Shown here piece after piece: positions 15,681 through 32,428 of a stretch of 32,575 nucleotides of DNA (position 1 is its first letter; each line of letters starts with the position of its first letter). A model generated the notes under the pieces. The model was not told the origin of the DNA. It was given only the letters and a program-made list of their open reading frames with translations, and made no database searches. Source of the stretch: a virus. The stretch is from the IMG/VR virus record IMGVR_UViG_3300025264_000059, positions 1 through 32,575 of that record, one strand, 5' to 3'. The position numbers and the translations under genes were made by a program.

Positions 15681-15956
15681 ATGGCTAGTAATAAGAATGC
15701 TCTAGCAATGTGTGATACATGTGGATTTGTGTATGCACATAGAGTTATGAAAATGAATAGTTATGGGATGCTGGTATGCCCACAAGATTATGAAGGTCAG
15801 TATGACTTGAAGAATCATCCTCAGAATAAAGTACCTGATGTTAGAGACAACCCGGCAATACGTAACCCTCGTCCTGATGATGGTGGCAGATTTATAGATT
15901 GGCAAAACTGCACCAGTAATTGGGATTCAGAAGATAGATGGTGGCAAACAATATGA
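15681..15956 (+). CDS. zinc-ribbon-like small protein
   Basis: A 91-residue protein with CDTCGF (Cys11, Cys14), an aromatic and basic hairpin of about 18 residues, then VCPQDYEG (Cys33) and LKNHPQNK (His46). The spacing resembles a treble-clef or zinc-ribbon knuckle, but the second CxxC is incomplete: CPQD has Asp in place of the second Cys, so His20, Asp36 or His46 may supply the fourth ligand. The following NPRPDDGGRFIDWQNC segment is Asp/Gly/Trp-rich. Such proteins accompany connector genes in related marine phages as I recall. Its stop overlaps the fibre gene start by ATGA. Confidence 0.68.
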   Translation: MASNKNALAMCDTCGFVYAHRVMKMNSYGMLVCPQDYEGQYDLKNHPQNKVPDVRDNPAIRNPRPDDGGRFIDWQNCTSNWDSEDRWWQTI

Positions 15957-18900
15957 GCACATTAACAGGAAGACAAATATCAGATACATATAAGCAGCTA
16001 ATTAAACTGGCTGTAAGTGCCAATGCTGGTGTCTCTGCTGATCTTACACAGATACAAACAGGTGATGGTACAAATATAGCTTTCCAGTTAGCAACTGGAG
16101 CAGCAAAGGCAACAGGTACATTTGGAGTAGACGGTAATGCTTCTGTATCTGGTAACATACAAATAGGTGGTACAGTATCTATTGATGGTGCCAATGTTGC
16201 AGCACCTAATGCAAAAGTGTGTGCCTCTGCCTTTTACGGTGATGGGTCCAATATTACAGGTGTTAATTCCAGTGTAGGTGGGAATGTCTGTGTAGGAAAT
16301 ATATCCGTAGTAGGTAATGCATATGTAAGTGGTACATCCCAATTTGTAAGTAAGGTAGAATTTGATGACGATGTATGTGTAAGTGGTAATACTGTACTCG
16401 TAGGTAACTTGACCGTAGGTGGAACTACCACCATTGGTGGTGCAGCTAGTATAGCAGGAGCCTTGAGTGTAGGAGGAGCTACGAACTTACTCAGTACACT
16501 TACAGCAGTAGGTAAGGCTGAGTTTGATGACGATGTATGTGTAAGTGGTAACACTGTACTTGTAGGTAACTTGGCCGTAGGTGGAACTACTACTTTAGGA
16601 GGAGCAGTTAGTATAGCTGGTGCTCTTAGTGTAGGTGGTGCTGCTCGTTTTGCGAGTACCGTAACTATCGCAGGTAATGCTAGAATAGCTGGGACAGCAC
16701 ATATTACTGGTAAAACAGACTTTGATGGAGATGTATGTGTATCAGGAAATTCAAGAGTTGTAGGTAACTTAACTGTAGATGGTACAGCTACCATAGGTGG
16801 TGCCGTAACAATGGCAGATTCACTTGGTGTTGGTGGAGCTTTATCCGTAGTTGGAAATGTATCTATGGGTGGTAATCTAAATATAGCAGGTACTGTAACG
16901 ATAGCAGGTACAGGTATACAAGCAGCCAATGCAAAGGTATGTGCTTCTGCTTTCTACGGTGATGGATCTAATTTAACAAATGTTCCAGCTTCCGGTAATG
17001 TTTCTGTTTCAGCTTTACGTGTAACAGGTAATGTTACGATTGGTGGAAATGTTAGTGTAGCAGGTGCTGTTAATTTCCTAAGTACAGCTACTGTATCTGG
17101 AGCCACTGGTTTCCTAAATACAGTACGTGTATCAGGAGCAACATCATTAGCAAGTACTCTTGATGTAGCAGGTAATACATCTCTTGGTGGTACACTGGCA
17201 CAAACAGGTATAGCTACCTTTGCTGCCAAGGCAGAGTTTGATGATGATGTATGTGTGTCAGGTAATACAGTTCTAGTAGGTAACTTAGCAGTAGGTGGTA
17301 CTACAACTATAACAGGTGCAGTTAGTCTTGCCAGTACATTAAGTGTAGGAGGGGCAGCTAATTTTGCATCTACTGTAACCATAGCAGGTACAAATGTACA
17401 GGCTGCAAATGCAAAGGTTTGTGCTTCTGCTTTTTATGGTGATGGATCTAATCTTTCAAATGTTCCTGCTGCTATTACAGGTAATATATCAGTTAATAAT
17501 GCTACTATAGGTGGAAACTTATATGTAGGTGGTACGGCAACTATAGTTGGTAATACAACTCTGACTGCCAATCTTGGAGTAGGTGGTACACTTACAGCCG
17601 TAGGTAAGGCAGAGTTTGACGATGACGTATGTGTGTCAGGTAATACAGTTCTCGTAGGTAATCTGGCAGTTGGAGGTACAACAACAATTGCTGGTGCTGT
17701 TAGTCTTGCAAGTACATTAAGTGTTGGAGGGGCTGCTCACTTTGCCTCCACTGTGACCATAGCTGGTAACACTACACTTACAGGTACATTAGGTGTAGGA
17801 GGTATTGCTACCTTTGCATCTAAGGTAGAGTTTGATGATGATGTATGTGTAAGTGGTAATTCAATACTAGTAGGTAATCTAACTGTAGGTGGTACAACTA
17901 CCATAGGTGGAGCAGTTAGCATAGCAGGTGCTCTCAGTGTAGGAGGTGCTGCTCACTTTGCATCAACAGTTACCATAGCAGGTAATACAACTCTAACAGG
18001 TACATTAGGTGTAGGAGGTGCTGCTACTTTTGCATCCACAGTTACCATAGCAGGTAATACAACTCTAACTGGTAATTTAGGAGTAGGTGGTACAGCTACC
18101 ATAGTAGGTAAAGCAGAGTTTGATGACGATGTTTGTGTATCAGGTAACTCTATTTTAGTAGGTAACTTAACCGTAGGAGGTACTACTACTATAGGAGGTG
18201 CTACTAGTATAGCAGGAGCTTTGAGTGTAGGTGGAGCTACCAATCTTCTAAGTACATTAACTGTAGCAGGTAAAGCAGAATTTGATGATGCAGTCTGTGT
18301 CTCAGGTAACACAATACTTGTTGGTAATCTAACTGTAGGTGGTACAACAACTATAGGTGGTGCTGTTAGTATATCAGGAGCTTTAAGTGTAGGTGGTGCT
18401 GCTAACTTTGCCTCTACTGTTACAGTAGCAGGTGCTACTCATCTTCAAAGTACTGTATCTGTTAATGGAGTCATGACTCTTAATAATAATTTAGATATGC
18501 AAGACGATGATAAAATTCTTTTAGGTACACATGATGATCTTCAGATTTATCATGATGGTTCACATTCTTATATCTCTGATGTCGATACTGGTTCTTTAAT
18601 TATCAAAGCAACTGATCTTTATTTACAGGATGCTGACGGTGATAGGTTTTTATTCGGAGATCAGGGTGGGGCAGTAGAGCTTTATCATAATGCAAGTGCA
18701 AGACTTACGACAACAGCAAATGGAGCTACTATAACTGGAACTTTACTTGCTACTACAGATACGGACACAACTAATTCTGGTGATGTACGACTAGACTACA
18801 GCACAAATCAGAATTTTGTCCTTACGTTTACAGGTAATGTTGTTCTTACCAATCCAACTACAGAGCAGGTAGGACAATCTGGAATTATAGTTTGTATTCA

Positions 18901-19066
18901 GGATGGAACAGGTTCAAGAACCTTGAGTTTAGGAACTGACTATGAGACTGCTGGTGGTGCAGGTATAACTCTCAGTACTGCTGGTAATGCTGTAGATGTT
19001 ATACCATACTTTGTTAAAGCATCAGGAAGTATTCAACTTGGTGCAGTACAGAAAGCATTTAGCTAA
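15953..19066 (+). CDS. large repetitive tail fibre/tailspike-like protein
   Basis: A predicted receptor-binding fibre of 1037 residues. The start at 15953 (MSTLTGRQISDTYKQLIKLA) is preferred over an in-frame ATG five codons upstream because of the ATGA overlap with the preceding stop; the 'LTGxQIxDTYK' opening is typical of such fibres. Residues about 132-832 consist of Gly/Thr/Val/Ser-rich beta-repeat units. These include eight copies of an F-D-x-x-V-C-V-S-G-N unit (usually EFDDDVCVSGN), three ANAKVCASAFYGDGSN-like units (the widespread 'FxGDGSxL' motif), and many T-V/I-A-G-N and L-S-V-G-G-A steps. This suggests a beta-helix or triple-beta-helix shaft. The head at about 850-950 has DDLQIYHDGSHSYI. 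The C-terminal module from about 950 resembles that of the fibre at 22960. Confidence 0.82.
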   Translation: MSTLTGRQISDTYKQLIKLAVSANAGVSADLTQIQTGDGTNIAFQLATGAAKATGTFGVDGNASVSGNIQIGGTVSIDGANVAAPNAKVCASAFYGDGSNITGVNSSVGGNVCVGNISVVGNAYVSGTSQFVSKVEFDDDVCVSGNTVLVGNLTVGGTTTIGGAASIAGALSVGGATNLLSTLTAVGKAEFDDDVCVSGNTVLVGNLAVGGTTTLGGAVSIAGALSVGGAARFASTVTIAGNARIAGTAHITGKTDFDGDVCVSGNSRVVGNLTVDGTATIGGAVTMADSLGVGGALSVVGNVSMGGNLNIAGTVTIAGTGIQAANAKVCASAFYGDGSNLTNVPASGNVSVSALRVTGNVTIGGNVSVAGAVNFLSTATVSGATGFLNTVRVSGATSLASTLDVAGNTSLGGTLAQTGIATFAAKAEFDDDVCVSGNTVLVGNLAVGGTTTITGAVSLASTLSVGGAANFASTVTIAGTNVQAANAKVCASAFYGDGSNLSNVPAAITGNISVNNATIGGNLYVGGTATIVGNTTLTANLGVGGTLTAVGKAEFDDDVCVSGNTVLVGNLAVGGTTTIAGAVSLASTLSVGGAAHFASTVTIAGNTTLTGTLGVGGIATFASKVEFDDDVCVSGNSILVGNLTVGGTTTIGGAVSIAGALSVGGAAHFASTVTIAGNTTLTGTLGVGGAATFASTVTIAGNTTLTGNLGVGGTATIVGKAEFDDDVCVSGNSILVGNLTVGGTTTIGGATSIAGALSVGGATNLLSTLTVAGKAEFDDAVCVSGNTILVGNLTVGGTTTIGGAVSISGALSVGGAANFASTVTVAGATHLQSTVSVNGVMTLNNNLDMQDDDKILLGTHDDLQIYHDGSHSYISDVDTGSLIIKATDLYLQDADGDRFLFGDQGGAVELYHNASARLTTTANGATITGTLLATTDTDTTNSGDVRLDYSTNQNFVLTFTGNVVLTNPTTEQVGQSGIIVCIQDGTGSRTLSLGTDYETAGGAGITLSTAGNAVDVIPYFVKASGSIQLGAVQKAFS
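16348..18450 (+). repeat. tandem and interspersed repeats encoding fibre units
   Basis: About 2.1 kb of imperfect repeats inside the fibre gene. Eight units carry the phrase encoding F-D-x-x-V-C-V-S-G-N-(T/S)-x-x-V-G-N-L, mostly spaced unevenly because other repeat types intervene. Copies usually differ at synonymous codon positions, so most duplications look old and selected at the protein level. A later pair, 17957-18028 and 18029-18100, is a 72-bp (24-codon) direct repeat with only two mismatches in its first 45 bases, indicating a recent duplication. Interpreted as coding repeats, not a CRISPR or regulatory array. Confidence 0.85.
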
Positions 19067-22959: not shown

Positions 22960-23901
22960 ATGGCATCAAGTTATACTAGTCGAATACGGCTAACAAAACA
23001 AGGAGATGGTGACAATCCCAATACGTGGGGTACTGTTCTTAATAACCAAGTCATTGATCTGGTAGACGATGCTATTGCTTCTTATACAACAGTATCAATC
23101 GGGTCAGCAGCTACAGTTACTTTGACAGAAAATGAAGGTTCAGAAGATCAATCTCGTTCTGCCATACTACATTTTAAAGGATCAGTAGGAGGTTCTCATA
23201 ATACTATATCATTAATTATACCTGCTAAATCTAAACAATATGTAGTTAATAATGCAGTATCAGCTAATACTACAGCATCAGACATTGTTAAGATGAAGAC
23301 TGCTGGTGGTGATGGTTATGATATTCCACTTGGTTCTGTTGGATTAGTTGTATGTGATGGTACATCCGTTCTACCAACTAATGCAAAAGGATTTAGTTTA
23401 GGTACAGCAGCCAGTGCAGATATCGGAGTATGTGCAACTAATGTACCTGATACTTCTCTTGCTGATATACGATATCTAAGAGTATCTACTTCCTCCAATG
23501 TTTCTTTAATAGGAAGTAAATTTATCGTAGGTGCTTCGGTAACTACTCCCGGTAATTTTGTTATAGGTACAAATGCAAGAGCATATAATCCAATAGTAAC
23601 AATTACAGATGCTGCTTGTATTAGTATTAATATGGCTCTGGGAAATAACTTCTTAGTTACCGTGGGAGGAAATAGAACTTTAAAGAAACCTGCCAATTGT
23701 ACAGTAGGACAAGGTGGAAATATATATTTTATACAGGATGGCACAGGTGATCGAACTTTAAGTTATAATACAGCTTGGCAATTTGTATCAGCTTCTGTAC
23801 CTAGTTTAAGTACAGGTGCTGCTGATGTAGATATGCTTGTATATAATGCACGAAGTAGTGCAACAATTGATGCAGTACTACTCAAGAACTTTGATAGGTA
23901 A
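22960..23901 (+). CDS. tail fibre protein
   Basis: A 313-residue protein with an N-terminal fibre-attachment-like segment (YTSRIRLTKQGDGDNPNTWG) common to marine-phage fibres. A beta-rich middle region (about 60-240) includes TAGGDGYDIPLGSVGLVVCD. The C-terminal module from about 235 contains FLVTVGGNRTLKKP, IYFIQDGTGDRTLSYN and SLSTGAADVDMLVYN. The last part parallels the end of the long fibre (GQSGIIVCIQDGTGSRTLSL ... LSTAGNAVDVIPYFV), so the two fibres share a C-terminal module that may bind a common partner or trimerise. A good ribosome-binding site (AGTAGGAGTTG) precedes it. Confidence 0.76.
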   Translation: MASSYTSRIRLTKQGDGDNPNTWGTVLNNQVIDLVDDAIASYTTVSIGSAATVTLTENEGSEDQSRSAILHFKGSVGGSHNTISLIIPAKSKQYVVNNAVSANTTASDIVKMKTAGGDGYDIPLGSVGLVVCDGTSVLPTNAKGFSLGTAASADIGVCATNVPDTSLADIRYLRVSTSSNVSLIGSKFIVGASVTTPGNFVIGTNARAYNPIVTITDAACISINMALGNNFLVTVGGNRTLKKPANCTVGQGGNIYFIQDGTGDRTLSYNTAWQFVSASVPSLSTGAADVDMLVYNARSSATIDAVLLKNFDR

Positions 23902-23903
23902 AT

Positions 23904-26120
23904 ATGTCTTCTTCAAATGCTAAACTTGGAAAGATGAATTTTGCTCCCGGCATTAGACGGGAATCTACTCAGTATGCAGAGGAAGGTTCTTGGTATGATG
24001 CCGATAGGGTAAGGTTTAGAGCTGGTAGACCAGAGAATCTACGTGGGTATGAGACAAAAGTATCTGCTACGTTTGATGGTGCTGCTCGTGATCTTCTTAC
24101 CTATACTGATTATGATCAGCAGAAGAGAGCAATCTTTGGTACACCTCAGAAGTTATATGAACATGATCAGGATAGAATTGTAGATATAACTCCTGTCTCT
24201 ACATCTGTAACTATTACAAGTGCATTCACCGTAGCTCTATCAGCCACTACAGTAACTGTTACGGCTGCTGGTCATGGACGAGCTACTGGAGATTATGTAT
24301 TCTTTACCAGTGTTTCAGGACCAAGTGGTGGTGTAACTATAGGTGGTAATATAATATTAGGTACAAGTGTTTTTCAGGTTAGTGTTATAGGAGCTAATTC
24401 ATTTGCCATAGATGTAGCAACTACAGCCAGTGCTGCTCAATCTCAGGCAAGTCAGGCAACAGCACATTACCTTATATTTACAGGGGTGTCTAATGCTGCT
24501 CCGGGTTTAGGATTTGGTGCAGCTAAATATACTGCTACTGAACCTACTTCAGTTGGTATAAGTAAGATTTCAACAACTGGCAGTAGTGCATTAGTTACTG
24601 TATCATGTGATGCTGCTCATAATGCTGCTGCCAATGATTTTGTATTCTTTAAGCCAACGAGTATTAATGCATCACCTGTTACAGTTGGTGGTAATTTAGT
24701 ACTATCTAAACCATTTGTTACAAATGGCAGTGGAACTACAGTAAGTGTTGGTGGTCCTCTATTTACTGTTACATCGGTAGCTAGTACACAAATTATTATT
24801 ACAGTCGATACTAATGCCAGTGCAACAGAAAATGCAACATCTAATTTGAATATGACTGCTCGTATCTTTCCTCAGAGTACAACAGGGAGAGCTTATAATG
24901 AACCTACATCTGTAGGAGCTACAGGTTTCTCAAGTCAGATTACACAATGGAGTCTGGATAACTGGGGTGAAGATATACTATGTAATCGTAGAAAGGGAAC
25001 TTTATATCTGTTTGATACAGATGCATCAACAACTCCTTTACGAGCAGCAAAGGTATCTGGAACTACCAATTCTACACCCACAACAATTTCTTCTATGCTT
25101 GTATCTCCTAATGATAGGCATGTAATAGCTTTAGGAGTTAATCAATTTGGAACTACAGCATCACCATCAGGTACATATGATCCCATGACAGTACGGTGGG
25201 CTAATCAGGAAGATCAGACTAATTGGGTTCCTTCTGTTAGTTCCACATCGGGTGAAGTACAGATTACAGATGGTAATAAAATAGTAGGTGGAGTACGATC
25301 CAGAAATGCTGTAAATATATGGACGGATAATGCTCTATGGTTACAGACATTTGTTGGTCCTCCCTTTACATTTAAGTTTACACAAATGGGTTCCAACTGT
25401 GGACTAATAGCACCACATGCAGCCGTTGATTATGATGGTCGTACTGCATGGATGGGCTTTGATAATTTCTATGTCTTTGATGGGCAGGTACGAACTCTTG
25501 ATTGTACAGTACGAAAATATATATTTGATAGATTAAATGAGAGCCAGAAAGATAAAATATTTGTAGGAATTAATTCAGAGTTTAAAGAAATAGTATGGTT
25601 ATATCCATCTACAGATTCCAATGAATGTGACTCTTATGTTATATGGTCACCTGATGAAAACTACTGGACATATGGAAGTGGTATTTTTACTACTTTTGTA
25701 GATAAGGGAACTTTTGATAATACAATTACAACAGGTGTAAGTGTAGCAGGTAATAATTTATATAATAATGAACCTGAAGATATCTTTACAGTAAATGGTG
25801 AAGCAGCTACTTCATTCTTGGAGTCAGCAGATTTTGATATAGATGAAGGTAATGAGTTAATGTTCATTGATCGTATTATACCTGATTTAACTATGAATGA
25901 TGGAACAATTAAATTTTCCATTAAGACAAAGAATTTTCCAGATCAACCTGATTCAGATCTGGTGGAGAAAGGGCCATTCTCCATAGCAAAGAATACAAGT
26001 AAAGTGGATTTAAGAGCACGAGGAAGGCAGGGGAGAGTAAGAGTATCCTGTGAATCTGGAGGTACGAAATGGCAATGGGGTTCCATTCGTATGTCAATGC
26101 AACCTGATGGGATGAGATAA
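23904..26120 (+). CDS. P22 gp10-like tail hub candidate
   Basis: A 738-residue protein with an opening typical of gp10-like tail-hub proteins in marine podoviruses (KMNFAPGIRRESTQYAEEGSW, then DADRVRFRAGRPENLRGYET). The body is a beta-rich Ser/Thr/Val repeat-like region (about 90-330). A more conserved second half follows: WSLDNWGEDILCNRRKGTLY, GVRSRNAVNIWTDNALWLQT, FTQMGSNCGLIAPHAAVDYD, GRTAWMGFDNFYVFDGQ. The C-terminus is beta-rich. In P22, gp10 forms the hub connecting gp4 to the needle and tailspikes, and helps retain DNA. Position after fibres and before ejection proteins fits. The assignment is from sequence pattern, without a search. Confidence 0.68.
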   Translation: MSSSNAKLGKMNFAPGIRRESTQYAEEGSWYDADRVRFRAGRPENLRGYETKVSATFDGAARDLLTYTDYDQQKRAIFGTPQKLYEHDQDRIVDITPVSTSVTITSAFTVALSATTVTVTAAGHGRATGDYVFFTSVSGPSGGVTIGGNIILGTSVFQVSVIGANSFAIDVATTASAAQSQASQATAHYLIFTGVSNAAPGLGFGAAKYTATEPTSVGISKISTTGSSALVTVSCDAAHNAAANDFVFFKPTSINASPVTVGGNLVLSKPFVTNGSGTTVSVGGPLFTVTSVASTQIIITVDTNASATENATSNLNMTARIFPQSTTGRAYNEPTSVGATGFSSQITQWSLDNWGEDILCNRRKGTLYLFDTDASTTPLRAAKVSGTTNSTPTTISSMLVSPNDRHVIALGVNQFGTTASPSGTYDPMTVRWANQEDQTNWVPSVSSTSGEVQITDGNKIVGGVRSRNAVNIWTDNALWLQTFVGPPFTFKFTQMGSNCGLIAPHAAVDYDGRTAWMGFDNFYVFDGQVRTLDCTVRKYIFDRLNESQKDKIFVGINSEFKEIVWLYPSTDSNECDSYVIWSPDENYWTYGSGIFTTFVDKGTFDNTITTGVSVAGNNLYNNEPEDIFTVNGEAATSFLESADFDIDEGNELMFIDRIIPDLTMNDGTIKFSIKTKNFPDQPDSDLVEKGPFSIAKNTSKVDLRARGRQGRVRVSCESGGTKWQWGSIRMSMQPDGMR

Positions 26121-26404
26121 TGGCTAGGTATCCAGAGTTTCCAGTAATTTTTCCTGATGATGTTAAAAGAGGAGTATCTTATATTTATAGTAGGTTTCAG
26201 CAATGGGGTGCTGCACTTGTTAATGAATTGGATACACGAGATCAAATACAGGATGCTACACCATCTACTAATATTTATGCAGTAGTAACGGTAGGTAGTA
26301 TTGAGAGGCCAGATAAAGGTGATATAGCTTACTCAGTTAGTGCAGGTAAGTTTAAAGGATACGTTAGTACGGCAGGAACTCAAGCATGGCAGGATTTAAA
26401 CTAA
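26120..26404 (+). CDS. small hypothetical structural protein
   Basis: A 94-residue protein translationally coupled to the previous gene (TAATG overlap) and to the next. The N-terminal half is helical (FPDDVKRGVSYIYSRFQQWG). The C-terminal half is beta-like, with a phrase DIAYSVSAGKFKGYVSTAG that resembles the 'KGYV....TWQDLN' ends of small tail proteins in related phages as I recall. It lacks known motifs. Its place behind the hub candidate suggests a tail role. Confidence 0.66.
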   Translation: MARYPEFPVIFPDDVKRGVSYIYSRFQQWGAALVNELDTRDQIQDATPSTNIYAVVTVGSIERPDKGDIAYSVSAGKFKGYVSTAGTQAWQDLN

Positions 26405-27471
26405 TGACTGACAGATCTCAACAAAATAAAACTAGTAATATAATTGAGCAGTTTTTGAAAAAAATTGTAGCTGATAGGAACCGAGCTCCAACAGTCACGA
26501 CTGACGATCAGCACAGACTTGGTGATCTGGACTACAGAGTGGAATTGGACCCAGAACTTGCACCCACTCCTCTGGGCCAACTGGCATACTGGGATATAAG
26601 AGAAAAGTCAGGAGGAGATGTTTCTCAATACATTAAAAATGTAATGGGTAACCCTGAGAAAGACTATATTATGGGTGATGATCCAGAAGATCCTATCTAT
26701 GGCACACGGACTAGAGGTATTCATGACCCATCAACAGGTATAGTTCGTGCAAACGTTACAGATTTGGTGGATCTGTTTGGTCCTGAACATGCAGAACTTC
26801 AGCATCAGACAGGAGGAGACATAGTTATGTCCCATGAACTGGGTCATGCTGGAATACAACTTCTTAGGGAGGCTAAAAAACTACCGGAAGGATCTAACCG
26901 TTTCTATGAAGAAGATATATTGCAGATACTGGATGCAATTGGATATGGAACGAGGGGAGGAAAAGTATCTCCTCCTTGGAAATCAGAGGGTATATTTTCG
27001 GGTGAAGGTCCAGTAGGTAAATCGGACAGGTCTTCTGAAGAAAAAAATGTTGACTATGCAAGAACTGCTACTGGAGTGATGACGGGAGAACTAGGTGACC
27101 TTACTCCATATGAACGGGAACTAGCTGCATACGTAACAGAGTTGAATAAAGTAGCTACAGAGGAACTGGCCTCCAGAAAGAAATCGTATAAACCACCAGT
27201 AAAAAAGGCTGAGGGAGGCTTGCTTAGTATGGCTTTAAGTACTGAATCACAAACATCTCCTATGATTAGTAAAGATATTTTAGATAGTACTTTAGTTCAA
27301 AATTTAAATCAAGGATTAGGAGTGCCTTCTTATCTTGAAGGAACAACTATACAAAAATTATTACAACCAAGTGTAGATTTGAATAATCCTGCTTATGCAA
27401 ACCAAAATACATTAGTAGCTGATAATACATTGGCACAATCAAATTATATGAATACACGGAGAATGGCATAA
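26404..27471 (+). CDS. HExxH metallopeptidase-like protein
   Basis: A 355-residue protein (MTDRSQQNKTSN start at 26404 preferred because of the TAATG junction with the preceding stop and AGGA at 26393-26396; an in-frame ATG at 26386 is possible). The segment IVMSHELGHAGIQLLREA (His144, Glu145, His148) is a textbook zinc-metallopeptidase helix with two His ligands and a catalytic Glu. The third ligand could be a Glu in YERELAAYVTEL (about 236-247), as in gluzincin-like folds, but is not certain. The C-terminus has the recurrent AEGGLLSMAL motif and a disordered Gln/Asn/Leu-rich tail. It sits just before the ejection-type proteins. Predicted roles are peptidoglycan opening or virion-protein cleavage; the substrate is unknown. 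Confidence 0.72.
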   Translation: MTDRSQQNKTSNIIEQFLKKIVADRNRAPTVTTDDQHRLGDLDYRVELDPELAPTPLGQLAYWDIREKSGGDVSQYIKNVMGNPEKDYIMGDDPEDPIYGTRTRGIHDPSTGIVRANVTDLVDLFGPEHAELQHQTGGDIVMSHELGHAGIQLLREAKKLPEGSNRFYEEDILQILDAIGYGTRGGKVSPPWKSEGIFSGEGPVGKSDRSSEEKNVDYARTATGVMTGELGDLTPYERELAAYVTELNKVATEELASRKKSYKPPVKKAEGGLLSMALSTESQTSPMISKDILDSTLVQNLNQGLGVPSYLEGTTIQKLLQPSVDLNNPAYANQNTLVADNTLAQSNYMNTRRMA

Positions 27472-29441
27472 TGGCATACAATGTAGAACAATTAATAAAT
27501 TTACAAAATCAAATAGGTAGTCAACCTGTTATGCCTGATGCTATGGATAGATATCAAGCTATGAGGCGAATGAGTTTTCCTGCAAATTCCGGTGGATTGT
27601 TATCTATGTTAGAAGGAGGCGGTCAACCTCAACATTCGGGTACAGCTCAAGCACTTGCATCTAAAGGTAGATTCGGAGATACTATGCTAATGCATGTAAA
27701 TCCAGAAGAAGTTCAAGGTATAGCTTCTGTAGCAGGTGGTTTAACAATAAATCCAGAAACAGGATTACCTGAAGCATTCTGGGCTGCACTCCCATTCCTT
27801 GCTAAAGCTGCTATTGTAGGGGCAGGTATAGGTGCTGCTCGTAAAGCAACGGGTGGTAGTGGTAGTTGGATACAAAATATTCTTGGTGGTGCTGGTATCG
27901 GATTAATGGGTGGAGCAGCTATAGGTCCAGCAGGATTAGGATTAATAGGGACTCCAGCAGCAGCAGGAGCAGGAGGAGCAGCTACAACAGCTGCTAATGT
28001 TGCTGGTCTTGCTGGAACCGGAGGGACAACCTTAACACAAGGAGCTTTAGCTGCACAATTAGCTAATCCAACTTTAATACCAACAGCTTATGGAACTGCT
28101 GGAATTGGTGGTAGTCTTATTCCTCATGCTACACAAGCAGGTATATTAAGTGGAGCCAATGTTCCTCTGCAACAAGCTGCCATTCAAAATGTAGCAGGTT
28201 CTCAAGGCTTTGGACAATTTGGCCTTAGTCCTCAAAATATGGTTGCTGCTTCTCAACCATCTTCTACTCCCGTACTATTTGGAGCTAATAAGATCCCAAC
28301 GGGTTCTGTTACTCAAGGATTACAGCAACAAATAGCAGGTTCTATTCCTAAAGCAGCTCCAGAACAAAAACTTAATTGGTTTGAAAAGTTATTTAGTTCT
28401 CCTGAAAAAGATGCATCAAAAAAAGAAACAGGAGGACTTTATGATACATTAATGTCAGAAGTAACTGAACATCCTTATCGAACAGGAGCTACTGCATTAA
28501 CTCTAGCTTCTCTATTACCTTCAGGTGAAGAATACGAAGGCTATGAAGTACCTGAATCTACATTTGGAAAAGATGCAGGTGAGGCAGAGTTTATAAAGAA
28601 AGATCCTAGAATAGTACGAGAAGATCTAACAGATGAAGAAGCAGATCTTTTAGCTAGTGAAGGTGGAGACTATGGATTTTTTAGTCAAACAGCTTCTAAT
28701 GGTGGTATTGTAGCATTACAAGCTGGTGGTCAGAGTGGTCCAAAAGCAGGAGGACATCCAGCTGCAATATCACGACAACAACAAAGTATTCCAAGAAAAC
28801 CAGATAGACCATCTACTCCTATACCTCCTGAACTAATAGCAGAATCTGCTGCACCATTTCAAACTAGATTGTCTTCATTTAATGTAGATGATATATTATC
28901 TAAGATAGGTGGAACATCTAATCCTGTAAGTATTTTAGATGTACCTAAAGTACCGTTAAATATTCCAGTAGGAATTACGAATCAATTAGATAGTTTAATA
29001 AATAGAGCTATAGAAACACCACAAATTTCTGAATCTCCAGATAATGGTGCATTAGCAGAGTTATTGAAGAGATATTCTACTTTATCTCAAGAACAACCTG
29101 TAATACAAACTTCAGCTGATGGTGGATCTATTCAATTAGCTACAGGTGGAGAATTTGAAGGACGAGTGCAAGGACAGGGAGATGGTATGTCAGATCAGAT
29201 AGCTTTTAATGTAGTACCTCAGACTCCAGCTGATATACCGAATACTCCTGATGTAGCTTTACTAAGTACCGATGAATATGTTGTACCTGCTGATGTTGTT
29301 TCCATGTTAGGAAATGGTAGTAGTACAGCAGGATCTAAAATATTAGATCATTTTAATCAGACTATGAGACAAAAAGCTCATGGAACAAACAAACAACAAA
29401 CTCAAATTAATGCAGGAAAGGAGCTATCCAGACTAACATAA
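27471..29441 (+). CDS. putative ejection/internal virion protein 1
   Basis: A 656-residue protein. It has a Gly/Ala-rich, weakly hydrophobic region at about 103-200 (AALPFLAKAAIVGAGIGAAR, then ILGGAGIGLMGGAAIGPAG), which could insert into a membrane. It carries the recurrent motifs SGGLLSML (40-47), NGGIVALQAGG (about 415) and DGGSIQLATGG (about 552). The C-terminus has GQGDGMSDQIAFNV, STDEYVVPADVVSMLGNGSS and HFNQTMRQKAHG, a conserved-looking ending in related phages. The module at 66-103 (GRFGDTMLMHVNPEEVQG ... TINPETGLPE) recurs in the protein at 29867. Position and composition fit a protein ejected with DNA to form a membrane conduit, but direct proof is lacking. Confidence 0.62.
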   Translation: MAYNVEQLINLQNQIGSQPVMPDAMDRYQAMRRMSFPANSGGLLSMLEGGGQPQHSGTAQALASKGRFGDTMLMHVNPEEVQGIASVAGGLTINPETGLPEAFWAALPFLAKAAIVGAGIGAARKATGGSGSWIQNILGGAGIGLMGGAAIGPAGLGLIGTPAAAGAGGAATTAANVAGLAGTGGTTLTQGALAAQLANPTLIPTAYGTAGIGGSLIPHATQAGILSGANVPLQQAAIQNVAGSQGFGQFGLSPQNMVAASQPSSTPVLFGANKIPTGSVTQGLQQQIAGSIPKAAPEQKLNWFEKLFSSPEKDASKKETGGLYDTLMSEVTEHPYRTGATALTLASLLPSGEEYEGYEVPESTFGKDAGEAEFIKKDPRIVREDLTDEEADLLASEGGDYGFFSQTASNGGIVALQAGGQSGPKAGGHPAAISRQQQSIPRKPDRPSTPIPPELIAESAAPFQTRLSSFNVDDILSKIGGTSNPVSILDVPKVPLNIPVGITNQLDSLINRAIETPQISESPDNGALAELLKRYSTLSQEQPVIQTSADGGSIQLATGGEFEGRVQGQGDGMSDQIAFNVVPQTPADIPNTPDVALLSTDEYVVPADVVSMLGNGSSTAGSKILDHFNQTMRQKAHGTNKQQTQINAGKELSRLT

Positions 29442-29442
29442 A

Positions 29443-29874
29443 ATGATTGTATTAAAAATAGAACCTCAGTATATAGATGTTCTTTGGCCTTATGTAGAAC
29501 CTCTATTGAAGAAACCAATGGAACGTACGTTAGATGAAATTACATTAGAAGATATTAAAAACTGGCTAAAAGCAAACCAACAACAGCTTTGGTTAGGTGT
29601 AGATGAGCAGGAACAAGAAATTATTTTAGCAATAACAACTCAAATATATGTATATCCAAAGCAATCACATTTACGTATACACATGGCAGGATCAAAAAAG
29701 CATACAATTGATAGTTGGATTAATGAATGGATAGAACCGATGGAAAAATTCTGTAAAGAAAATGAAATACGTTATTTAGAAACAGCTGGTCGAGATGGAT
29801 GGACAAGATTATTAAAGAAAAAAGGATACGAAAAGTATTATACTGTTCTAGTGAAGGAAATAAAAGATGACTGA
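29443..29874 (+). CDS. GNAT-fold-like small protein (T7 gp13-like position)
   Basis: A 143-residue protein with a GNAT-like layout: an opening beta-alpha unit (IEPQYIDVLWPYVEPLLKK), QQLWLGVDEQEQEIILAITT and LRIHMAGSKKHTIDSWINEW, with the familiar C-terminal phrase GRDGWTRLLKKKGYEKYYTV (116-135). Podoviruses often have such a protein beside ejection proteins; it may be structural (compare T7 gp13) or an acetyltransferase-like enzyme. The acetyl-CoA signature (Q/RxxGxG/A) is not evident, so catalysis is doubtful. It sits between the two large ejection candidates and overlaps the next gene by eight bases (ATGACTGA). Confidence 0.65.
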   Translation: MIVLKIEPQYIDVLWPYVEPLLKKPMERTLDEITLEDIKNWLKANQQQLWLGVDEQEQEIILAITTQIYVYPKQSHLRIHMAGSKKHTIDSWINEWIEPMEKFCKENEIRYLETAGRDGWTRLLKKKGYEKYYTVLVKEIKDD

Positions 29875-32428
29875 TACACAAAAACTTATATCAACTTTGG
29901 GAATGCCAGAGAAAGTTACATTGTTTAAGGAATTATACAGTGAACTTTCAGGATATGGCATAGAAGGAGATACAGAACTTGCTCATGTAAATACATTTGA
30001 AGTTAGTCTTCTGAAATCTTTTGGTGGATCTGGTACTATTAATGAAGTAACGGGTTTACGAGAGTATAAAGGTGGTGGTGGTTCTCCTCCTCCGCCGCCA
30101 GCCTCTAGTCAGACAGTATCACAGACTTCAGAATTTCCTACAGAAATAAAACCATTTATTACAGATATTTTAAAAGAAGGTAAGGGTGAATTTGGTAGGG
30201 AAAAAGAAGAAGGATATCTAAGATTTCCCGGTTCTCAACTTGCTGGATTTACACCTGAACAACTAGCTGTTTTTGGTTTAGGTAGACAACAGTTTACAGG
30301 ATTAGCTGGAACACCTCTTGGTCAAGCAAGCACATATTATACACCAGCATTAGCTGCTACTGGACTTGGTACATCTGAGATAGGTACAGGAGATATAGCA
30401 CGTAGAATGGACCCATTCATACAGAATGTGGTAGATGTAGCCAAGAGAGAAGCAGGAAGAGATGAAGAGTTAGCTAGGCAGCAACGTGCAGCACAAGCAG
30501 TAGGAGCTGGATCATTTGGTGGTTCCAGACAAGCTATATTAGAGGCTGAAGGAGAAAGAAATCTTGCAGAAAGACTTGGTGATATTCAGGCACGAGGATT
30601 ATCCACGGCATTTCAGAATGCACAACGAGCAGCTGAACAACAACGAGCCAGAGAGATGACAGGTGGTAGGCAGTTTGCAGCATTGGGAGATATAACAGGA
30701 ACACGAGCACGATCTGATCTGGCAGGTTTATCAGGTATAGGTGAAGTTCAGCAGCAACGTCAGCAGCAAGCATTAGATATTGCACGTAGAGAATTTGAAC
30801 AAGAAAAGGCTTTTCCTCAAACTGCTTTACAACGGTATGCCTCTCTTATTAGAGGATTTCCTCTTGCTCCTAACCAACAGCAAGTTACAACTACTAGAGA
30901 ACGACCTCCCTCTTTTGCTTCACAGCTAACAGCAGCTGGATTAGGAGCTGCTGGTATGTATGGTATGTTTGGAGGATTTAATCCTACTCCTCCTCCTGCT
31001 GCTAGTGCTGCTGGTGGTCTCGTAGGACTAGCTGAAGGTGGTACAGTACAACCACAAGAAGGAGTAACTAGTGGTAGTAAAGCTGGTAGTGGTGGTGGTG
31101 GTAAAGCTGGTGGTAATAATAGATATCTAAAATTATTGATGATGAACCCAGAGATTGCTAAACAATTAAAAGACAAATTTGGATTAACAATTGATTCAAG
31201 TGGAAACTGGAGCAGGGCTGTTAATCAAGCAGCACAACAAATTAGACAGCCTTTTGCTAATATTAATCTAGGAAATTATATCAAGACTAAGAGTGATGGT
31301 GGATTGTTATCAGTTATTAAGAGAGCAAAACAAGGTCCAGTATCATTAAGTGAAAGATTAGATCCACGATATAAAACAACTGAGCTATTTAGTCCTGAGT
31401 TTATGGAAGAATATGCATCTAAGGATTCTTCAGAAGCAGAACCTGTAGTAATTCCTGAAGTTCCTAAGGACGATCCTCCTCTTACTTCATATGAAGAGCT
31501 TATGGCAGCACAAGTGGAATTACTAAACAGACTAAGAGGAGAGAAAACTTTATTACAAGCAGATGTAACTGAAACTGAAAACTTAATTAATAAATTATTA
31601 AAGGACAGTCCAGAAAAAACAAAAGCAGCTGAACAAAAAGAAATAAGAGATTTCTATTTAGAAGAACAACGGTTAGCTGAAGAAAACAAAAAGAAAATAG
31701 GAGAACGATATGGGCAGAGTATGGGAATGGCTGCTTGGTCAGCTGCTCCCCATTTTCTAGAACCCGGAAAAACATGGGGAGAACAAGCAATTTCAGCAAA
31801 AGAGTCAACACTCCCACGTATTGAACAAGCTCAAGCAGATAAATATGCTGCTGAAGATTTAAGTACTGAAGCTGCACGAGATAGACGATTAGCTCAACGA
31901 GGTGAAGAGAAGTTAGTTGATGATATGATTTGGGAAAATAGATTAAAACGTATAGATCTAAACCGAGCTAAGACAACTGATAAACTAAAACTTGCTGCCT
32001 TAGATAAAGAAGCAGCAGCAATACATTTAGAAATGGAAAAATATGAACATCAGCTTAAACTATCATATGGTCTTGGTAATATAGAATTAGGTGATACAAG
32101 TTCTTTAGTAGCTGATATAGAATCAGGTATGTATGGAGATATTATAAAGTCTATGGATAAAGTAGCAATATATGCTATGGTACAGCAAGCTAAACAAAAT
32201 ATAATAAATAAATATTCTAGACCTGATGCTGAACCGATTGTAACTCCAGAGCAAACTATCTTAGAAGTAGAACGGGAAGTACAAAGATTGGTAGCTGCAG
32301 AACTAAAGAGACAACGACAAGCTGATCTAAACAAAGGAAATAAAGGAGGTAAAGGAGATGGAGAAAAGACAGGTGCTGCTCCTTTAAGTCAAACAGCTAT
32401 AGACGCATTAAATACGAGAGTATACTAA
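29867..32428 (+). CDS. putative ejection/internal virion protein 2
   Basis: An 853-residue protein. Residues 33-68 (EGDTELAHVNTFEVSLLKSF ... GTINEVTGLREY) resemble the module of the protein at 27471. A polyproline linker (SPPPPPASS) follows. The region at about 100-370 is a helical phage segment (FIQNVVDVAKREAGRDEELA, GAGSFGGSRQAILEAEGERN, AFQNAQRAAEQQRAREM, FEQEKAFPQTALQRYASLIR), like a family near the tail end of podovirus genomes. A short Gly/Ala hydrophobic region at about 345-370 and GG motifs (AAGGLVGLAEGGTV, SDGGLLSVI) follow. The C-terminal half is helical with coiled-coil stretches (about 545-620 and 700-730). It lies next to the GNAT-like gene. Role in genome ejection is inferred. 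Confidence 0.62.
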   Translation: MTDTQKLISTLGMPEKVTLFKELYSELSGYGIEGDTELAHVNTFEVSLLKSFGGSGTINEVTGLREYKGGGGSPPPPPASSQTVSQTSEFPTEIKPFITDILKEGKGEFGREKEEGYLRFPGSQLAGFTPEQLAVFGLGRQQFTGLAGTPLGQASTYYTPALAATGLGTSEIGTGDIARRMDPFIQNVVDVAKREAGRDEELARQQRAAQAVGAGSFGGSRQAILEAEGERNLAERLGDIQARGLSTAFQNAQRAAEQQRAREMTGGRQFAALGDITGTRARSDLAGLSGIGEVQQQRQQQALDIARREFEQEKAFPQTALQRYASLIRGFPLAPNQQQVTTTRERPPSFASQLTAAGLGAAGMYGMFGGFNPTPPPAASAAGGLVGLAEGGTVQPQEGVTSGSKAGSGGGGKAGGNNRYLKLLMMNPEIAKQLKDKFGLTIDSSGNWSRAVNQAAQQIRQPFANINLGNYIKTKSDGGLLSVIKRAKQGPVSLSERLDPRYKTTELFSPEFMEEYASKDSSEAEPVVIPEVPKDDPPLTSYEELMAAQVELLNRLRGEKTLLQADVTETENLINKLLKDSPEKTKAAEQKEIRDFYLEEQRLAEENKKKIGERYGQSMGMAAWSAAPHFLEPGKTWGEQAISAKESTLPRIEQAQADKYAAEDLSTEAARDRRLAQRGEEKLVDDMIWENRLKRIDLNRAKTTDKLKLAALDKEAAAIHLEMEKYEHQLKLSYGLGNIELGDTSSLVADIESGMYGDIIKSMDKVAIYAMVQQAKQNIINKYSRPDAEPIVTPEQTILEVEREVQRLVAAELKRQRQADLNKGNKGGKGDGEKTGAAPLSQTAIDALNTRVY

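Follow-up and report, generated by a model that had tools for sequence, protein, structure and literature searches.

A portable 37-residue module in ejection-type proteins, widespread among uncultured viruses but scarce in deposited phage records

The podoviral ejection proteins (gp14, gp15 and gp16 of T7, and their P22 homologues) are modular and mosaic, as illustrated in passages of PMC8954989 by a peptidoglycan-hydrolase domain that has moved to a gp15 homologue. The two proteins described here, ORF A and ORF B, resemble them in their place in the late gene block with several ejection-type genes in a row, and in having apparently membrane-like segments and mosaic domain swapping; however, the 37-residue module that these two proteins share is not found in those passages, and while ORF B matches PHROG 4287, ORF A has no family match among the Pfam and PHROG profiles. 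Some tail tape measure proteins, recognized by PF20155 (TMP_3) or by several PHROGs, do carry the same module, which lies outside the coverage of the profiles seen, but unlike them neither ORF A nor ORF B matches a tape-measure profile and both sit in a podovirus-like cassette. A third comparison is with the phage-borne polymorphic toxins of the MuF type and the polyvalent phage proteins, which are proposed in passages of PMC5576092 and PMC5512222, respectively, to be delivered with phage DNA. These share with the module carriers the combination of a vehicle and an exchangeable cargo, and one carrier has a MuF-like PF04233 domain after its module; they are, however, defined by other domains, the same passages do not contain the module, and toxin-like cargo is seen only in relatives from a single MAG. 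Neither ORF A nor ORF B has a Pfam domain, and hence neither has a known C-terminal toxin domain. Modular ejection proteins and phage-borne toxins are thus already known; what appears to be new is a portable module not found in Pfam, the PHROGs, PDB sequences or the open-access papers searched.

The window, by which we mean the whole stretch of DNA analysed, is an IMG/VR virus record of 32,575 bases, and its gene order places ORF A and ORF B within the late structural block, beside hub/stabilisation genes (Table 1). Of the 80 loci with enough upstream DNA, 61 have a phrog_3287 homologue upstream of the module gene. The 143-aa gene between the two ORFs we take to be acetyltransferase-like, with a likeness to T7 gp13; two genes of this type stand beside ejection-type genes in L024 (8641-9075 and 9641-10066, by profile) and in L170 (665-1096 and 1104-1580, by reading), where L numbers denote loci retrieved in our searches. 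Only the C-terminal 60-65 residues of the HExxH protein match separate ORFs of 69-71 aa in L009 and L024, in which such short ORFs alone occupy the place of the HExxH gene, and its peptidase-like part therefore looks like a fusion or insertion in the window phage. The motif GGLLS[MV] occurs at 27591-27608 (ORF A residue 41), 27214-27231 (residue 277 of the HExxH protein) and 31298-31315 (ORF B residue 478).

Table 1. Coordinates of the features of the window
Feature	Position	Strand	Remarks
Window, IMG/VR virus record	32,575 bases		Final genes: phrog_3287 gene to ORF B
phrog_3287 'virion structural protein' gene	23904..26120	+	Family match
Small gene	26120-26404		Between the phrog_3287 gene and the HExxH gene
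HExxH protein gene	26386-27471		HELGH at residue 150; directly upstream of ORF A
ORF A, 656 aa	27471..29441	+	Upstream helix, module, hydrophobic Gly/Ala-rich segment, long variable middle, conserved C-terminal motif
ORF A helix (predicted), residues 54-65	27630..27665	+	Directly before the module; LAxxLASK-G-R pattern in relatives
ORF A module copy, residues 66-102	27666..27776	+	GRFGDTMLMHVNPEEVQGIASVAGGLTINPETGLPEA; form ending in A
ORF A residues 103-190	27777..28040	+	Hydrophobic, Gly/Ala-rich, membrane-like by sequence; after the module
ORF A C-terminal motif	29160..29381	+	GDGMSDQI...LSTDEYVVPADVVSMLGNGSS; found in 71 ORFs
143-aa gene between ORF A and ORF B	29443..29874	+	Homologues between or beside A and B in relatives
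ORF B, 853 aa	29867..32428	+	Residues 80-373 match phrog_4287 'DNA ejection protein', E 1.7e-13
ORF B helix (predicted), residues 13-30	29903..29956	+	Before the module
ORF B module copy, residues 31-67	29957..30067	+	GIEGDTELAHVNTFEVSLLKSFGGSGTINEVTGLREY; form ending in F/Y
ORF B Gly/Pro-rich linker	30068..30103	+	After the module; similar linkers lie at or near the start of many module-less B-type relatives

A first-pass annotation of the window had proposed that ORF A and ORF B share a module and are otherwise dissimilar, and both parts of this proposal hold, the limits given for the two copies being right to within one or two residues. The best local A-B score is 76 and the top score among 1000 shuffles is 60 (Gumbel p ~5e-5, with strict gap costs); the ORF A copy as query retrieves that of ORF B at E 2.3e-5. 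Of the 378 pairs formed by 28 window ORFs, only one scores higher than A-B: the two fibre-like ORFs that begin at 15938 and 22960, with 148. The former (15938-19066) is a long repeat protein with VGGTTTIGGAVSIAGALSVGG-like units and the latter (22960-23901) a smaller fibre-like protein. Masking the module lowers the best A-B score to 45, which is inside the shuffle range, and the dissimilarity outside the module therefore stands; the remaining window ORFs score 41 or less with either copy, such that within the window the module is confined to A and B. Chance or low-complexity similarity between two Gly-rich proteins might be suspected from the Gly/Ala-richness of both and from the presence of the short TINPETGLPE by itself in RnfB-like ferredoxins, but it is refuted by the shuffles, the profile E-values and the hundreds of loci that hold the module, and we give it practically no credence.

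The first scan of IMG/VR yielded at least 573 confirmed module stretches among the 599 candidates listed, and a second, with other module copies as query, at least 549 among the 599 listed. Viral loci kept and read from these scans numbered 80 and 79, and the module is present in all of them; the 79 locus identifiers of the second sample are new, although at least six denote first-sample contigs (L144, L147, L159, L165, L172 and L191), and L170, L186 and L187 are near-copies of one another. The loci were fetched by module or B query, and the counts of module-less genes are lower bounds. Matches in the first sample numbered 112 in 105 loci, including six ferredoxins (L103-L108, RnfB-like and named by reading) that matched TINPETGLPE only and were dropped as convergent, leaving 106 matches in 105 ORFs at 99 loci. 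Among deposited phage records, translated searches with each copy found the module in just four of 50,697 (Methylophilales phage Venkman, phage DSL-LC04 and two Manatee Spring phages), and a consensus query gave the same four; one such search listed 11 records, of which seven, with E of 4 or above, were set aside as chance matches. With the consensus query, three of 72,556 plasmids carry the module, two from Candidatus Megaera and one from Candidatus Bealeia. The endosymbiont plasmids pBealeia1 (L202) and pPCS109 (L203) have podovirus-like A genes with the module, the gene being in one piece in Megaera and in several pieces in Bealeia. Six of 385 genomes sampled from the Alphaproteobacteria, the class of the carrier MAG, contain the module at E 1e-6, two of which were already known carriers.

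In a scan of 72 members at E 0.1, no Pfam or PHROG family covers the 37 residues; the families matched were each matched by one to five members only, and these matches either fit neighbouring domains such as endolysin and MuF or are weak. PDB sequences gave no match to the module, the best E being 0.069 over 18 profile positions, and the open-access papers searched for its letters held no relevant description. Its abundance in uncultured viruses, set against its near-absence from deposited phages, would account for the missing Pfam or PHROG family. Rather than two weakly similar segments in which D, T, H and T-G-L are unconserved, the searches found hundreds of loci with strong conservation; the first-pass annotation had seen here a conserved module of ejection-type proteins, and its recurrence in phages and prophages bears this out.

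The consensus of the module is G-R-x-G-D-[TS]-M-L-[AV]-H-[MIV]-[TN]-P-x-E-[VA]-x-x-L-x-x-x-G-G-S-[GL]-T-I-N-P-x-T-G-L-P-E-[AFY]. In 88 non-redundant copies, Asp is found in 86/86 with a letter at that position, His in 87/88, Glu in 88/88, Thr in 86/87, Asn in 87/88, the second Thr in 88/88 and the Gly that follows it in 86/88. Two forms can be distinguished, one ending in F/Y (49 of 106 copies) and one ending in A (57 of 106), the latter often with four extra residues, and a helix of the type LxxLAxxLASK precedes the core to give a full unit of about 50 residues. Such invariance of D, H, E, N and T across unrelated proteins could indicate a metal-binding or small catalytic site, as the first-pass annotation had suggested for metal. 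We regard this as improbable, however, since no solved structure matches and degenerate copies persist: partly decayed further copies are seen in L009, L024, L070 and L120, with His replaced by Tyr in L070 and in the first copy of L009, the Asp missing from the first copy of L024, and two copies in L120, neither of which is complete. The AlphaFold model of ORF B residues 1-110 (72 rows) has helices at 3-10, 13-29 and 43-51 and two short strands, with pLDDT block means of 57-72 across residues 31-70; that of the whole of ORF A (40 rows) has helices at 55-64, 78-88 and 101-117, with block means of 60-73 over residues 61-110 and 83-93 over residues 601-640, and most of the middle below 50. A fold for the module is thus only suggested, at low to moderate confidence, and with pLDDT within it of just ~57-73 a rigid docking domain is no more than a possibility.

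Most carriers are A-type podoviral proteins, and some are B-type (PHROG 4287, 'DNA ejection'). The motif GPGDGxSDSIPA...ADGEFVVPADVVSxLGNGS is found in 65 of the 90 complete module ORFs; in A-type relatives this C-terminal motif overlaps matches to tape-measure PHROGs that cover nothing else, and no Pfam family covers it in the proteins scanned. The possibility that the module is a repeat of this motif in ORF A (DSIPAxLxDGE, GEFVVPADVV) was rejected, the hhalign probability being below 1% both ways.

As a rule the module is on one gene of the A/B pair, and rarely on both. Among 63 loci with a B-type gene, it is on A only in 55, on both in five, on B only in one and on neither in two, the last class being under-counted because the loci were mostly selected by the module. 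The loci with the module on both genes are the window, L009, L011, L014 and L024; in Venkman (L005) and, from the second scan, in L170 and L186 it is on the B-type gene and absent from the hydrophobic neighbour, an arrangement that L181 and L193 of the same scan resemble. Whole viral records (n=49) hold one copy in 44 cases, two in four and three in one. Two modules per chain occur in the A-type proteins of L183, L185 and L196, the second copy in L183 lying far downstream. The borders of the module are sharp: it is missing from 58 of 64 B-type ORFs, many of which start at or near the Gly-rich linker, and an A-type ORF without it in L002 starts at the hydrophobic segment. It is, then, conserved across very different proteins, and either there or not there, with sharp borders. 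In a tree of the module, which rests on only 59 columns, with the bootstrap not settled and many forks open, the six B copies form a clade (100/99) apart from an A-type clade that includes window ORF A (99/92). On this tree a recent A to B duplication is rejected: the copies in ORF A and ORF B belong to separate, long-standing lineages.

Beyond the A/B pair, the module occurs in tail tape measure proteins recognized by PF20155 (L124 and L174, with an ORF in L125 that agrees in length and module), by PHROG matches (L096 and L100) or by reading only (L121 and L132); in L124 and L132 the module directly follows an LSPGEFV motif. One alphaproteobacterial MAG gave six module matches (L090, L093, L095, L098, L101 and the partial L117), in proteins laid out as PG_binding_1, then the module, then a variable end; PG_binding_1 is recognized by Pfam in L090, L093, L098 and L101, and L095 fits the layout by reading only. 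Known cargo ends include the MuF-like PF04233 domain of L101, a GH108 lysozyme with PG_binding_3 in L093 and, behind the module at L098:5737-6531 and beside phage genes, a serum amyloid A domain (PF00277, E 1.3e-30); domains of this kind may also end Rhs-type toxins. These proteins look like a polymorphic family. L101 lies near a PF12236 portal gene and L098 near terminase and DUF7483 genes, so these two are probably within prophages, while the L090 and L093 copies stand, by reading, beside housekeeping genes. A type VI secretion vehicle for the MAG proteins was rejected, that genome giving no TssC/VipB match. A small same-strand gene about 20 bases downstream of the cargo gene is found at L090 only; since the downstream genes elsewhere are mixed, immunity genes are not claimed.

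The carriers of recognizable type belong to, or adjoin, proteins thought to leave the virion with the DNA (L090 and L093 being exceptions), and the module marks a border: what follows it is a membrane-like segment, a linker or a cargo domain. Because the carriers are of the ejected type, the module is at borders and usually one of the pair has it, we tentatively favour, at somewhat less than even confidence, an N-terminal (or junction) docking or anchoring module of the ejection machinery. It would bind a common partner, or itself, and this binding would anchor or load the ejection complex in the virion channel, the complex leaving as a unit. One module-bearing member of the A/B pair would suffice, and a module on both, as in the window, would tie A and B to the same site; ORF A and ORF B are presumably themselves ejected. 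Conservation, portability, detachability, pairing, old lineages, a mostly single copy, and synteny with phrog_3287 and B point the same way, again tentatively. As most B-type proteins lack the module, it is not a tag needed by every ejected protein. Against docking, podoviral ejection complexes and long-tail tape measures have no common partner that is obvious apart from the DNA channel, the host envelope or the module itself, and a catalytic or metal site could equally account for the near-invariance of D, H, E and N. We found no virion proteomics for these phages, and PMC9004378, which mentions Venkman, gave no such passage when searched.

The junction position of the module in A-type, tape-measure and PG_binding-cargo proteins would also be expected of a processing site or propeptide, at which self-cleavage or a phage protease would free the membrane-active or cargo part after assembly. 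Many A-type genes have the module close behind the first Met, where a leader would lie (median distance 22 residues, 106 copies), the HExxH gene directly precedes ORF A in the window, near-invariant D, H and E would be predicted, and passages of PMC5512222 report that phage P1 DdrB is cut before packaging. However, the Asn-Pro pair suited to Asn-type self-cleavage reads Asn-Glu in ORF B, L100, L170, L186 and L187 and Asn-Ser in L121, conservation over all 37 residues exceeds what a protease site needs, and the HExxH part is not general, as L009 and L024 indicate; we therefore think processing unlikely. Also unlikely, and to a similar degree, is that the module caps membrane entry: lacking a specific partner, it would fold over and mask the amphipathic or hydrophobic segment behind it until the protein is ejected. 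Hydrophobic windows of 19 residues scoring at least 1.6 lie within 90 residues downstream of 38/106 copies and upstream of 0/77, and cationic amphipathic-looking stretches follow many second-sample copies. Against this, 68/106 copies are below the threshold, the module of B-type, MuF- and certain other carriers is not immediately followed by a segment of this kind, and the hydrophobic part occurs without the module in L002 and in the A-like neighbours of L005 and L170. Of the roles offered by the first-pass annotation, a shared partner or common assembly address thus fits best, given a portable and detachable unit on several unrelated kinds of protein, and a metal-binding or cleavage site less well. 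A broader form, in which the module serves tailed phages as a general delivery address by which ejection, tape measure and toxin-like cargo proteins are loaded into or through the DNA channel, seems rather doubtful; on that reading it would have stayed unseen because nearly all of its carriers are uncultured.

To our knowledge, the choice of ejection proteins for the virion and the manner in which they are held at the portal are largely open questions. A portable unit present on different ejected proteins offers a direct handle on them, as it can be moved or deleted and its binder sought. The module also provides an annotation key for proteins called 'hypothetical' in viral contigs that number in the hundreds, and it points to toxin-like cargo in prophages of Alphaproteobacteria.
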